Source: an uncultured Pseudomonadota bacterium (GTDB taxonomy: Bacteria; Pseudomonadota; Gammaproteobacteria; Methylococcales; Methylomonadaceae). From it: DNA of 58,164 nucleotides. The notes beneath the pieces are model-generated. The model was not told the DNA's origin. It worked only from the letters and a program-made list of their open reading frames with translations, and ran no database searches. Shown here in pieces: positions 7,527 to 12,110 of the stretch. The stretch lies in assembly GCA_903867225.1 (NCBI GenBank), contig CAIPQN010000082.1:1-58164 (forward strand), given 5' to 3'. Within the stretch, counting starts at the first letter, position 1. Each line of letters starts with the position of its first letter. The position numbers were made by a program, and so were the translations under genes.

Positions 7527-10500
7527 ATGCCAATGTCCCCCAAATTTATTCACCTTAGAGTTCACACTGAATACTCACTAATCGATGGTTTAGTGAAAAT
7601 CAAACCGTTAGTTAAAAAATTAACTGAATTACAAATGCCTGCGGTGGCAATTACTGACCACGTTAATTTGTTTGGTTTGGTGAAAATGTACAAAACCGCG
7701 ACTTCGCAAGGTATTAAGCCAATTGCGGGTTCGGACGTTCTCATTTTTAATTCCGACGAACCTGATAATCCGTATCGTTTAACGTTGCTCGCGCAAAATC
7801 ACAAAGGTTACGTCACACTAACTGAATTGGTTTCGCAAGCGTATCAGCACGGGCAATCAAAAGACGGCGTGCCGATGATTCGACGTGAATGGATTGAGCA
7901 AAATCACGAGGGGTTGATTGCATTATCAGGCGCAATGCAAGGCGATATTGGACGCGCGTTAGTGGCTGATAAAAAAGATGACGCATTACATTTTGCGATG
8001 TATTGGCAAAACTTATTTCCAAATCGATTTTATTTAGAACTCCAGCGCGTCGGAAAACTAAACGAAGAAAATTACATTGCCGCCGCGATTGATGTGGCGT
8101 TTGCGTTGAATTTGCCAGTGGTTGCTACAAACGACGTGCGCTTTTTAAAACAAACCGAATTTGCCGCACACGAAGTTCGTGTTTGTATCAACCAAGGGCG
8201 TGTTTTAGACGATGCACGTCGTCCAAAAGATTACACCGACCAACAATATCTGCGTAGCGCAGAAGAAATGCAGGCATTGTTTGCCGACATTCCCGAAGCC
8301 TTAGAAAATTCGGTTGAAATTGCTAAACGTTGCAGTCTAACGTTGGTATTAGGTAAAAATTATTTGCCTGATTTCCCCACGCCCGAAGGCATGACGATTA
8401 ACGATTTGATTATCGTTGAATCCGAAAAAGGCTTGCTTGAACGCTTGCAACATCACAAAGTTCCAGACGAAAACGCTTATCACGAACGCTTAAAAATTGA
8501 ACTCGATGTGATTACCCAAATGGGTTTTTCGGGTTATTTCATGATTGTTGCCGACTTCATTCAGTGGGCAAAAAATCATGGTATTCCCGTTGGACCTGGA
8601 CGGGGTTCGGGCGCAGGTTCGTTGGTTGCTTACGTTTTGAAAATTACCGATTTAGATCCGATTGAATTTGAATTGCTGTTCGAGAGATTTTTGAATCCTG
8701 AACGGGTGTCGATGCCTGATTTTGATATTGATTTCTGTATGGATCGGCGCGACGAAGTGATTGATTACGTTGCGGATCATTATGGACGCGACCAAGTTTC
8801 GCAGATTATTACTTACGGTTCGATGGCGGCAAAAGCCGTGATTCGTGACGTGGGGCGCGTTTTGAGTTTGGGTTATGGTTTTGTTGACCGATTAGCAAAA
8901 ATGATTCCGACCGAAGTCGGCATTACGCTATCGGACGCGCTGAAAAATAGCCCTGAAATGCAGCAAGCCTACAACACCGAAGAAGACGTAAAAACGTTGA
9001 TTGATATGGCGTTGATTTTGGAAGGCACGGCGCGAAACGCGGGGAAACACGCGGGTGGTGTCGTTATCGCGCCAACAAAATTAACCGATTTCACGCCGCT
9101 TTATTGTGACCACGAAGGCAATAATCTCGTTACGCAATTCGACAAAAGCGATGTGGAATCTGTCGGTTTGGTGAAATTCGACTTTTTGGGCTTGCGGACG
9201 CTGACGATTATTGATTGGGCGTTGCAAACCATTGACGTGCAAAATGCGAAAAAAGGGCTGCCGCCCGTCGATATTAGCCAAATTCCGCGTGACGATTTTG
9301 CGTCGTATGATTTGCTCAAAAAAGGTTTAACAACCGCCGTTTTTCAGCTCGAATCTCGCGGCATGAAAGAGTTAATCAAAAAACTTTTGCCCGACTGTTT
9401 CAACGACATCATTGCGTTGGTGGCGTTATTTCGTCCTGGACCTTTGGAATCTGGGATGGTTGATGATTACGTCAACGTCAAACATAAACGCAAACCAGCT
9501 GAATACGCGCACCCGATTCTTGAGCCAATTTTAGAACCAACCAACGGCGTTATTTTGTATCAAGAACAAGTTATGCAAATTGCGCGGGAATTGTCAGGGT
9601 ACACGCTGGGTGGCGCGGATATATTGAGGCGGGCTATGGGCAAGAAGGACAGTAAGGAAATGGCAAATCAACGTGCCGTTTTTGTCAGTGGCGCAGTTGT
9701 AAATGAAGTTACTGAAGAAACCGCTAATTACGTTTTTGACCTAGTAGACAAGTTCAGTGGATATGGATTTAACAAAACTATAGCAAAAAATACTCAGGTG
9801 CGTACAATCGTGGGTGATAAGAACATTGAAGATTGCCAAGCGGGCGACGTTGTTTTTAGCATGAATGCCGATGGTTCAGTGGTGCAATCAAACGTTGTTG
9901 CATTGCACGACCACGGCAGCGTTCCGTTATGGCTAGTGGAGTTTGATGATGACACACGAGAAAAATGTACCCTTGACCACAAGTGGCTTACCGACGAAGG
10001 ACAAATCCCGCTCTGGCAAATCCTACAAATGGGAAACCAAGTGTGGGGAAATCGTGCCGAGACTTCGGGACATTTCGATTCACCAAAAACAATGTCCAAC
10101 GTGCATGAGTCAAATTCGCACGGGTCCCAGTTCGGGCAAGGACATCGTAATGTACTGCGGCGAAATTGTAAAAACACACAAAAATCGCAAAGAACATTTT
10201 CAATCGTGCGAGGCATGTCACGTCAGACGGCGCGAAATTCGGGTGCAAACCTGCAAAAATTTAGTGCATACGGACGAAATGCGTCAAAGATATTCGGAAA
10301 CGGCGAAGAAGACATCGGCACGCTCCGATATTCAAGAGCAGCGTTCAGTACAATTAAAAAATTGGCGAGTGGAAAATACCGAAAAATTCGAGGAAATTCG
10401 CGCAAAAGCCTATGCGTCGCCCAAACTATCGAAAATGGAAATGTATTTAGAGCCGTATCTGATCGAAAAGGGTTTTACACGAAGTGTGCGGCTGAGTTGT

Positions 10501-12110
10501 GGCGAATCGAAAACTCTCAAACAAGTCGATTTTGTCCACAAAAAACACAAAATCGTTATCGAAGTGGATGGACCTTGGCATTTTTTGCCGATTCATTCAG
10601 AGGAACAATTAGCCATCGTTCAAGCACGCGACCATTTGCTACATCAAGAAATTATGCGGCGCAATTGGCGGTTAATTCGCTTGTCGATGCAAGGCTTCAA
10701 AGGCAGCACGGGCAAATTGATTACGCCTACGTTGAAAATGTTGTTCAGCAAAATAGACGACAAGATGTGGACGGGGGTGTTGTGTTTCGGAAGCCTGTAC
10801 GAGCTACGTTTTTGGGATGGCATCAAGGTTATGATCTTGAAGTAGATCACCCTGAACACAATTTTTTATTGTCTTCGGGGTTATGTTGTTCAAATTCCCA
10901 TTCTGCCGCTTACGCCCTCGTCGCCTATCAAACAGCCTGGCTCAAAGCCCATTATCCAGCAGCATTTATGGCAGCGGTACTTTCTGCTGATATGGATAAC
11001 ACCGACAAAATCGTTATTAACATCGAAGAATGTCGCGCACTTAAAATCAAAATCGTTCCGCCCTCAATCAATTATTCAGATTTTAAATTTACTGTGAACG
11101 ACAACGGTGAGTTGGTTTACGGGTTAGGCGCATTGAAAGGCGCGGGCGAAGCCGCACTTTTAGACATGATTGCAGAACGAAAAATTAACGGTTTATTTTT
11201 GAGTTTGCATGATTTATGTCAACGTGTTGATTTACGAAAATTTAATAAGCGCGTTTCTGAAGCGCTCATAAAAGCAGGAGCTTTCGACGAATTCGACCCA
11301 AACCGCGCCGCGCATTTGGCAGAATTGCCTACCGCTCTGCAAATTGCTGAACATAAAAACAAAATGAAAATTGCAGGGCAAAGCGATTTATTTGGTTTAG
11401 GGGGCGGTAGCGATGAAACGGAAGAATCTGAAAACAAAACCTATGCCATTAACGTCGAGCCTTGGTCAGAAAAATTTAAATTCAGCGAAGAAAAAAACGT
11501 TTTAGGATTATTTTTAACAGGGCATCCCATTGATCAATATGCCGACGAATTACGAAAACTCGTATCACGAAATTTAGCGACTCGTATCGCAGAAATTGTT
11601 CCAGAGCGGCGTTCTAATCTTGTGAAGGTAGCGGGATTAGCGATTGACATTGGATCACGTCAAAATAAACAAGGAAAATCACGCGGTTTTGCGATTATCG
11701 ATGACAATACTGCACGTTTAGAAATTGTGGCACACCGCGAAATTTATGACGACAACAAGCAATTTTTCACCACCGATTACAAAGACCGTTTGTTAATTAT
11801 CGAAGGGAATTTGGCTCTGGATAATTATTTGAATATGCCAATTTTGACAGTAGATAAAATTTATCCGATTGAGCAAGCACGAAAAACGTTGCAACTTACG
11901 TTCAAAAATAATGCTGCCCAATTTGAAAAATTGGCTGGAATTTTACAAACCGTAAAAGGCGGAGAAACGCAGGTTTTAATTGATTATTACGGCGATAATG
12001 CTCGCGCCACATTACGTTTAAGTAATGCGTGGCAGGTCGAAGCCAGCGATGAGTTGTTGCACGAATTAAAAATATGGCTCGGAAATACTGCGATTCGATT
12101 GAGTTATTAA
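7527..12110 (+). CDS. dnaE: DNA polymerase III alpha subunit, intein-containing precursor
   Basis: The replicative polymerase. The N-terminal PHP domain begins FIHLRVHTEYSLIDG. The polymerase active-site aspartates lie in MPDFDIDF (residues ~395-402). The palm and beta-binding region and the C-terminal OB/tau-binding part follow. The open frame is 1527 codons; removing the 373-residue intein (residues 751-1123) leaves 1154, the normal length for DnaE1. The flanking exteins join exactly at GYGFNK / SHSAAYALV, one of the most conserved sites in the family. ATG 7527 and ATG 7533 are both possible starts. An overlapping gene lies inside the intein in another frame. ampD follows after 3 bp, so the two are likely cotranscribed. 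Confidence 0.95.
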   Translation: MPMSPKFIHLRVHTEYSLIDGLVKIKPLVKKLTELQMPAVAITDHVNLFGLVKMYKTATSQGIKPIAGSDVLIFNSDEPDNPYRLTLLAQNHKGYVTLTELVSQAYQHGQSKDGVPMIRREWIEQNHEGLIALSGAMQGDIGRALVADKKDDALHFAMYWQNLFPNRFYLELQRVGKLNEENYIAAAIDVAFALNLPVVATNDVRFLKQTEFAAHEVRVCINQGRVLDDARRPKDYTDQQYLRSAEEMQALFADIPEALENSVEIAKRCSLTLVLGKNYLPDFPTPEGMTINDLIIVESEKGLLERLQHHKVPDENAYHERLKIELDVITQMGFSGYFMIVADFIQWAKNHGIPVGPGRGSGAGSLVAYVLKITDLDPIEFELLFERFLNPERVSMPDFDIDFCMDRRDEVIDYVADHYGRDQVSQIITYGSMAAKAVIRDVGRVLSLGYGFVDRLAKMIPTEVGITLSDALKNSPEMQQAYNTEEDVKTLIDMALILEGTARNAGKHAGGVVIAPTKLTDFTPLYCDHEGNNLVTQFDKSDVESVGLVKFDFLGLRTLTIIDWALQTIDVQNAKKGLPPVDISQIPRDDFASYDLLKKGLTTAVFQLESRGMKELIKKLLPDCFNDIIALVALFRPGPLESGMVDDYVNVKHKRKPAEYAHPILEPILEPTNGVILYQEQVMQIARELSGYTLGGADILRRAMGKKDSKEMANQRAVFVSGAVVNEVTEETANYVFDLVDKFSGYGFNKTIAKNTQVRTIVGDKNIEDCQAGDVVFSMNADGSVVQSNVVALHDHGSVPLWLVEFDDDTREKCTLDHKWLTDEGQIPLWQILQMGNQVWGNRAETSGHFDSPKTMSNVHESNSHGSQFGQGHRNVLRRNCKNTQKSQRTFSIVRGMSRQTARNSGANLQKFSAYGRNASKIFGNGEEDIGTLRYSRAAFSTIKKLASGKYRKIRGNSRKSLCVAQTIENGNVFRAVSDRKGFYTKCAAELWRIENSQTSRFCPQKTQNRYRSGWTLAFFADSFRGTISHRSSTRPFATSRNYAAQLAVNSLVDARLQRQHGQIDYAYVENVVQQNRRQDVDGGVVFRKPVRATFLGWHQGYDLEVDHPEHNFLLSSGLCCSNSHSAAYALVAYQTAWLKAHYPAAFMAAVLSADMDNTDKIVINIEECRALKIKIVPPSINYSDFKFTVNDNGELVYGLGALKGAGEAALLDMIAERKINGLFLSLHDLCQRVDLRKFNKRVSEALIKAGAFDEFDPNRAAHLAELPTALQIAEHKNKMKIAGQSDLFGLGGGSDETEESENKTYAINVEPWSEKFKFSEEKNVLGLFLTGHPIDQYADELRKLVSRNLATRIAEIVPERRSNLVKVAGLAIDIGSRQNKQGKSRGFAIIDDNTARLEIVAHREIYDDNKQFFTTDYKDRLLIIEGNLALDNYLNMPILTVDKIYPIEQARKTLQLTFKNNAAQFEKLAGILQTVKGGETQVLIDYYGDNARATLRLSNAWQVEASDELLHELKIWLGNTAIRLSY
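9777..10895 (+). mobile_element. Intein in dnaE (373 residues)
   Basis: Splicing blocks are readable in the DnaE frame. Block A is TIAKNTQVRTIVG, followed by EDCQAGDVVFSM. Block B is CTLDHKWLTDEG with the expected Thr-x-x-His. Block F is YDLEVDHPEHNFLLSSG, and the element ends CCSN before extein Ser+1. Unusual points: residue 1 is Thr rather than Cys, Ser or Ala, and the penultimate residue is Ser rather than His. A Trp follows the block B His by two places, as in class 3 inteins, but block F lacks their Cys. Roughly residues 92-336 in this frame show no homing-endonuclease motif, because that domain is encoded in the +1 frame of the same DNA. Confidence 0.9.
9949..10845 (+). CDS. Homing-endonuclease-like protein nested out of frame inside the dnaE intein
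   Basis: This reading frame is +1 relative to dnaE. It could start at ATG 9949 with GGAG 7 bases upstream (ATG 9946 and TTG 9943 are alternatives), giving 298 residues. The N-terminal half carries two copies of the same motif, CGEIV then C-x12-H-x3-C-x2-C, with identical spacing: two tandem zinc fingers. Residues ~165-250 form a PD-(D/E)XK-type core: QVDFVHKKHKIVIEVDGPWHF, then QARDHLLHQEIMRRNWRLIRLS. This resembles Vsr/EDxHD endonucleases and RAP domains. The DnaE frame translation of the same bases shows no motif, yet has no stop codon over ~900 bases. Probable job: cut intein-less dnaE alleles. A pair of compensating sequencing indels is the main alternative. Confidence 0.8.
   Translation: MTHEKNVPLTTSGLPTKDKSRSGKSYKWETKCGEIVPRLRDISIHQKQCPTCMSQIRTGPSSGKDIVMYCGEIVKTHKNRKEHFQSCEACHVRRREIRVQTCKNLVHTDEMRQRYSETAKKTSARSDIQEQRSVQLKNWRVENTEKFEEIRAKAYASPKLSKMEMYLEPYLIEKGFTRSVRLSCGESKTLKQVDFVHKKHKIVIEVDGPWHFLPIHSEEQLAIVQARDHLLHQEIMRRNWRLIRLSMQGFKGSTGKLITPTLKMLFSKIDDKMWTGVLCFGSLYELRFWDGIKVMILK

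Follow-up and report, generated by a model that had tools for sequence, protein, structure and literature searches.

The window analysed here is a stretch of 58,164 nucleotides, positions 1 to 58,164 of the forward strand of contig CAIPQN010000082.1 (assembly GCA_903867225.1), from an uncultured member of the Methylomonadaceae. Its dnaE gene, encoding the alpha subunit of DNA polymerase III, is interrupted by an intein, and within this intein a Vsr-like endonuclease gene is nested out of frame with the host gene. This nested gene is real, conserved and unreported in the literature that we searched; the intein and the homing endonuclease are both of known kinds, and it is the layout that is new. 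The features concerned are as follows (a slash marks an intein junction).

7527 to 12110, + strand: dnaE, DNA polymerase III alpha (Pfam PF07733 at 5.5e-103, PF17657, PHP, HHH_6)
9777 to 10895, + strand: intein, 373 codons in the dnaE frame (GYGFNK/TIAKNTQV...GLCCSN/SHSAAY)
9777 to 10061, + strand: N-terminal half of the HINT splicing domain
9938 to 9941, + strand: GGAG, Shine-Dalgarno-like, 7 nucleotides before ATG 9949, inside host Val-Glu codons
9949 to 10845, + strand: endonuclease gene in the +1 frame, 298 codons and TAG (from reading of the open frame and protein relatives)
10042 to 10104, + strand: zinc finger 1 in the nuclease frame, C-x12-H-x3-C-x2-C (from sequence and alignment)
10062 to 10772, + strand: host-frame filler, 237 residues (96-332), largely the nuclease gene read in antiphase
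10156 to 10218, + strand: zinc finger 2 in the nuclease frame, C72...H85...C89-x2-C92 (from alignment)
10420 to 10815, + strand: Vsr-like (EDxHD-type) catalytic domain, residues 160-291 of the 300-residue open frame (from alignment and predicted structure)
10773 to 10895, + strand: C-terminal half of the HINT splicing domain (blocks F and G), ending CCSN before Ser+1

The dnaE open reading frame (ORF) comprises 1,527 codons, runs stop-free straight across the intein, and is the only DNA_pol3_alpha match in the source genome (94.86% complete). The intein junctions, placed using empty sites in congeners as well as relatives, put the insert between GYGFNK and SHSAAYA of DnaE. In a profile search the intein matches DnaE inteins, and its predicted structure builds a HINT fold from both ends of the insert. 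Block B carries the T-x-x-H motif (CTLDH), the terminal residue is Asn and Ser occupies +1; His68 and Asn373 are invariant across 18 aligned intein rows. Inteins usually carry Cys or Ser at position 1 and a penultimate His, the class 1 pattern, which the window departs from with Thr1 (9777-9779), which would make an unusual splicing nucleophile, and Ser372. Position 1 is Thr or Ser in all 18 aligned DnaE inteins of the window type; Cys1 and an HN ending are present instead in loci L036, L084 and L088. A first-pass annotation, made from the DNA letters alone, had recognized the splicing blocks at both ends of the insert, as we do, and did not mention Thr1 or the penultimate Ser. It had also seen no recognizable domain in the middle, for which indeed no fold is predicted (predicted local distance difference test, pLDDT, below 50 over residues 96-332); the filler that it proposed is there, at 237 residues by model confidence rather than the claimed ~245.

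The zinc-finger nuclease that it placed in the +1 frame, with a GGAG and an ATG of its own, is likewise present. The ATG at 9949 falls within host Asp-Asp codons, and the stop, TAG at 10843, within Val-Asp codons of block F. Alternative starts are ATG 9946 and TTG 9943, the ORF from the latter counting 300 codons; upstream, an in-frame TAG at 9934 precedes the ORF, and the open stretch of the nuclease frame begins at 9937, in the N-terminal half of the intein. Codon-position G+C switches phase across 10077-10676, as it should where the nuclease is the principal coding frame. In a 32-row alignment, C72, H85, C89 and C92 are nearly invariant (90% or more), and D196, E207, D209, H213 and D230 of the catalytic domain are invariant; these conserved acidic and His residues, together with the Vsr-type fold of the predicted structure, place the nuclease among EDxHD-type enzymes.

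Nested loci in bacteria and viruses

A protein search returned 31 nuclease relatives. In 15 of them an antiphase leader covers block B, called in 14 from the counterpart of the window's Met and in P0002 from further upstream; the layout counts below rest on DNA and do not include these proteins as such. Among genome contigs 10 loci matched, 8 of them full-length, the weak L010 and L011 (67 and 40 residues matched) being dropped. In 8 of 8 full-length bacterial relatives dnaE is open throughout and the nuclease lies at +1 (L007 stops at the contig edge). The hosts are Methylococcaceae, Thiotrichaceae, Ca. Venteria ishoeyi, Beggiatoa, Thiomargarita, Ca. Parabeggiatoa, Ca. Thiosymbion and Methyloprofundus.

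In viral contigs, a first alignment scan gave 26 loci, 13 with nesting at +1 and 13 without it. A second gave 42, of which 19 were on contigs new to the set, 9 with nesting at +1 and 10 without; a final scan added no contigs, a scan with a single protein query found no relative, and named phages and plasmids gave no match, all viral relatives being on metagenomic contigs. In total, +1 nesting occurs in 22 of 45 viral loci (near-copies included), and the host frame is closed in the other 23. No viral locus is nested in the other phase, and none of the 54 loci with a layout read has the nuclease within the host frame.

Counts below leave out near-copies (L022, L082, L029), duplicates of L009, L002 and the window (L038-L040) and contig-end fragments (L041, L042). 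Distinct nested loci number 29, the window and 28 others, with L022 and L082 excluded and the closest pair of nuclease genes 83% identical. Both frames are stop-free over the nuclease region in most, not all, nested copies. The host looks like DnaE in 27 of the 29, as called by Pfam for the window, L012, L017 and L021 and by the conserved junction for the remainder; the hosts of L075 and L077 are another phage gene with no DnaE family and weak head-maturation-protease matches (E 2.2e-6 and 0.0088). One viral contig, IMGVR_UViG_3300037520_002447, bears nested inteins in two genes (L072:2832-6602 and L075:2367-7412), whose nuclease DNA is 77% identical over 403 aligned bases. In L036:5934-7160 the nuclease sits near the intein N-terminus, ahead of block B, unlike in the other aligned nested inteins, and the locus has a very long tree branch.

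The nested intein is patchily distributed. Across 369 genomes of the class and 398 of the phylum only the source genome matched (at most 5-6 candidates scored per genome), and in the family 5 of 237 genomes matched, two of these being contig-end fragments. Among 18 genomes of the genus, the nuclease is in the window genome only; the dnaE site is continuous in 12 and cut off in G017. G010 (L064) has a conventional LAGLIDADG intein, by Pfam, at the identical GFNK/SHS site; G011 (L065) and G014 (L066) have an intein at a second site, ILRR/C...HN/CMGKK (LAGLIDADG by Pfam in G014), where G012 has a split match. Nuclease similarity and host similarity disagree: the Methyloprofundus locus L009 is 0.65 identical to the window in the extein and 0.63 in the nuclease, the Thiotrichaceae locus L003 0.55 and 0.73.

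Dassa et al. reportedly described, in 2009, fractured genes in which the intein is split and a free endonuclease gene separates its halves. They share with the window a homologous nuclease at a DnaE site, for which the 23 closed viral loci can be compared, and they differ in that the host gene lies in separate ORFs, not in a single one, and in the phase of the nuclease relative to the N half, which is another one in closed viral loci. A separate downstream ORF opens with the intein C-half in 10 of 12 closed loci listed (not seen in L023 and L030), and the nuclease open frame overlaps the N-half coding region in 10 of 11 closed loci that have an N part (not in L035). In a nuclease tree, from which L033 (shortened nuclease), L037, near-copies and later-found loci were left out, nested (20) and split (11) loci fall on opposite sides of one branch. 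This branch has 94/100 support, just under the tool's star mark, and appears in 96% of the 200 bootstraps; L036 and L035, both long-branched, are of unsure placement. Since the tree is unrooted, the direction between nested and split cannot be read from it. Because the nested nuclease already has a start and stop of its own, such antiphase inteins could be the missing link from a one-piece intein to a split intein with a free endonuclease gene, nested and fractured loci being two states of one lineage. We put this forward tentatively, along with the notion that they form an undescribed class of mobile element, in which one stretch of DNA inside a working intein encodes both an overprinted homing endonuclease and a translated filler purged of stops; the origin of split inteins would be testable by comparing nested and fractured relatives.

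Two open frames and the selection on them

Over 9949-10842 the host frame contains no stop, the nuclease frame none and the third frame 17. A host-frame stop arises exactly where T, as the last base of a nuclease codon, is followed by a codon starting with AA, AG or GA. At the window, T is found at 0 of 60 such junctions versus 59 of 152 others; across the 29 nested loci it is found at 0 of 1,706 versus 1,648 of 4,466, a zero that is conditional, and to that extent a point against our interpretation, since an open host frame is what makes a locus count as "nested". In 22 closed relatives the figures are 539 of 1,180 and 851 of 1,722, and closed loci carry 18-54 stops each in the frame that nested loci keep open. 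The loci read split into two groups, with none between 0 and 18 stops. When synonymous codons were redrawn from extein codon usage, 22.5 host-frame stops were expected for the window nuclease and 0 of 3,000 draws were stop-free. For the 21 nested loci resampled in this way, 5.1-32.9 host stops were expected per locus, and no draw in 3,000 was stop-free in 19 of them (16 were in L008 and 3 in L021). The evidential weight lies in these 5-33 expected stops per locus, from 21 rather than 29 loci, and in the gap between 0 and 18 stops. Thus, both frames are open over about 900 bases, and the host frame is under selection to stay open, as the first-pass annotation had proposed. T is excluded before AA-, AG- and GA- codons because the host frame must stay open, and it must do so because dnaE is single-copy here and is essential in bacteria.

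Codon-position and resampling tests were used in place of dual-frame ratios of nonsynonymous to synonymous substitution (dN/dS). Pairwise identity was computed for 55 pairs, of which 23 are listed, ten involving the window. Nuclease amino-acid identity (0.44-0.81) exceeds filler identity (0.21-0.57) in all 23 pairs listed; in the ten window pairs the ranges are 0.44-0.81 for the nuclease versus 0.23-0.57 for the filler. Nucleotide identity at nuclease codon positions 1/2/3 is 0.74/0.78/0.46 between the window and L003, and across the ten window pairs it is 0.57-0.89 at positions 1 and 2 and 0.36-0.64 at position 3, a pattern which implies that the nuclease protein has been under selection. The filler seems to be kept open rather than kept as sequence. 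A gain of 33 codons in the zinc-finger part of L004, L005, L006 and L009 preserves both frames. In L033:5709-6359 the nuclease is shortened to 145 codons with its middle lost (intein 217) and the host frame is still open, as would follow from the host frame alone being essential. The filler as a hidden functional domain was considered and rejected, there being no predicted fold and an identity only slightly above the synonymous null.

Expression, splicing and competing explanations

Block B reads CTxDHKW in 15 nested loci, and 13 of these carry a +1 ATG shortly before it, in the Asp-Asp region; in L007 and L016 this ATG and the nuclease core are separated by a stop. Upstream, 11 loci have the Glu of a Trp-Glu pair, and 10 of them encode the pair as TGGGAG, versus 3.6 expected from the hosts' usage (P 3.6e-5, valid only if the loci are independent); a further Glu two codons later, present in 8 loci, is encoded by GAA in 7 of them. 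In L017 and L019 the nuclease starts further downstream, with AGGAG 5-6 nucleotides before the ATG, while L016 has GGAGG 13 nucleotides away and L020 only AGGA, at 16 nucleotides. This pattern is compatible with independent initiation and is not proof of it; starts and Shine-Dalgarno-like sequences in most, not all, loci suggest that the nuclease may be made independently of splicing.

We consider it highly probable that the window holds a cis-splicing DnaE intein, as predicted, whose likely homing endonuclease is an overlapping +1 gene, probably translated by itself from an internal ribosome-binding site. The two readings share 9949-10845. A ribosome started at dnaE would read through, producing DnaE interrupted by the splicing domain and ~237 unstructured filler residues, and the intein would then excise itself, filler included. 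A ribosome starting at the internal ATG would yield a free nuclease of ~34 kDa with two zinc fingers and a Vsr-like domain. This nuclease would cut intein-less dnaE at GFNK/SHS, its presumed target, and repair would copy the intein in; homing would thereby maintain the nuclease frame.

Several further observations weigh against this reading. Thr1 with a penultimate Ser is atypical, and splicing of the window intein is therefore not assured. The nuclease has a Foldseek E-value of 4.9e-3 and a predicted template modelling score (pTM) of 0.46, its Pfam DUF559 match is below the cut-off, and its best PHROGs match, phrog_559 (E 1.7e-9, residues 26-248), is labelled HNH endonuclease, in conflict with the Vsr-like fold; no HNH family in Pfam matched at E up to 0.1. 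The ATG is missing at the homologous place in L012 and L015, L008 has no GGAG match, and, as called, the other 16 of the 31 homologous proteins start later or without a leader. Two of nine bacterial nuclease copies look broken, L002:5503-6402 by an internal TGA and L007:2454-3347 by a stop between ATG and zinc finger, with the dnaE frame intact in both. Stop-making T is mildly rarer in 12 closed loci too (381 of 897 versus 673 of 1,322, p 9.7e-5, P values here being nominal since the loci are related), which shows a context effect that nested loci would share, far short of zero. Finally, filler identity exceeds a synonymous, stop-avoiding null in 12 of 12 pairs (z 0.5-2.5 in 11, 4.3 in L005-L007); part of this excess is expected from shared ancestry, and some constraint on the filler may exist.

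Loci without a good internal start signal (L008, L012, L015, L020) would suit programmed ribosomal frameshifting from the intein N-half into +1, giving a fusion of N-half and nuclease with no internal start, and the opening of the nuclease frame inside the N-half makes such a shift geometrically possible. It is nonetheless unlikely, given that most loci whose block B is standard have an ATG preceded by GGAG or GGGAG, and that L017 and L019 have AGGAG-ATG elsewhere. We find it quite unlikely that the element is decaying, with the nuclease a relic and the frames open by chance or recent arrival: the nuclease-frame stops in L002 and L007 and the lost middle in L033 favor decay, whereas the stronger conservation of nuclease codon positions 1 and 2 over 3, as well as the failure of all 3,000 resamplings to leave the window host frame open, speak against it.

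Two compensating frameshifts, through assembly or sequencing error or as real mutations, might have displaced an originally in-frame endonuclease, given that inteins normally have the endonuclease in frame, as does the LAGLIDADG intein that the congener G010 carries at this site. The first-pass annotation had named such indels, or homologues with the nuclease in frame and none with it nested, as findings that would overturn its proposal. Instead, the same +1 overlap recurs in all 8 bacterial relatives, from other assemblies, and in the 22 viral loci, no stop-making junction occurs among the 1,706, and no locus read has the nuclease in the host frame; we regard a frameshift pair as extremely improbable. 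Assembly or sequencing error as such was rejected on the 8 independent bacterial loci, since a like pair of errors would be needed in each. Group I introns usually carry endonuclease genes out of frame with the host, which would fit removal of the insert as an RNA intron with incidental intein halves. The splicing-domain fold and the conserved junctions contradict this, with RNA splicing there would be no point in selecting for an open host frame, and no Rfam match was found at E up to 1 in 9500-11100; we rejected the RNA intron, which retains next to no probability.

Relation to known systems

The conventional LAGLIDADG cis-intein of G010 occupies the identical site and differs in having one frame, Cys1, a His-Asn ending and its endonuclease inside the spliced intein; the window nuclease, at +1, is out of frame with the splicing domain. 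The nearest splicing-domain profile and fold are those of the cyanobacterial DnaE inteins (Npu, Ssp), which are split, are not known to carry an endonuclease and are inserted three residues upstream of the window site. From Vsr and EDxHD homing endonucleases such as the intron-encoded I-Bth0305I, the window nuclease differs in having no credible match among PDB sequences (the single match was a ribosomal protein, E 0.69). EDxHD enzymes are described in the available text of PMC3943268.

The ShiLan and Pacc40 insertions in phage methylases carry out-of-frame HNH-like genes and no splicing domains, according to the accessible part of Arsenault, Gosselin and Gogarten 2025 (PMC11855218). ShiLan, in mycobacteriophage methylases, resembles the window in a host frame open through the insert, a zinc-finger endonuclease in another frame and a host-frame reading without a nuclease fold. 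It differs in that its nuclease is HNH rather than Vsr-like and in that it lacks a splicing domain such as the HINT domain found here, so that its authors think that the insert stays in the protein; in the same text the host methylase is called non-essential and no ribosome-binding site was detected. Another methylase of ShiLan-like design is mentioned in the part of PMC12613952 accessible to us. Our searches of the open-access PMC library (most subscription papers and bioRxiv lie beyond this scope) turned up no intein with a nested out-of-frame endonuclease and, as the one closely similar design, these phage methylase insertions; the available portions of PMC3229294, PMC6293099 and PMC7765530 have nothing on out-of-frame endonucleases in inteins. 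The statement of the first-pass annotation that no such intein is known stands for these searches, with the qualification that a splicing-less analogue, ShiLan, is in print.

A long same-strand overlap, ~900 bp, has persisted between deeply diverged lineages, and there is a plausible cause for keeping each frame: one must stay open for an essential host gene, the other must stay coding for a mobile nuclease. The nested layout would separate nuclease production from protein splicing. Annotators of large inteins that seem "domain-less" would do well to inspect their other frames too. A DnaE intein of 415 residues is reported from Desulfonema in the accessible text of PMC6390638. Nesting may also explain inteins reported without an endonuclease, such as that in dnaE of Ca. 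Thiomargarita nelsonii, the exception among four inteins in lacking an endonuclease domain according to the available text of PMC4853749; the Thiomargarita relative in our set, L006, carries a hidden nested nuclease.
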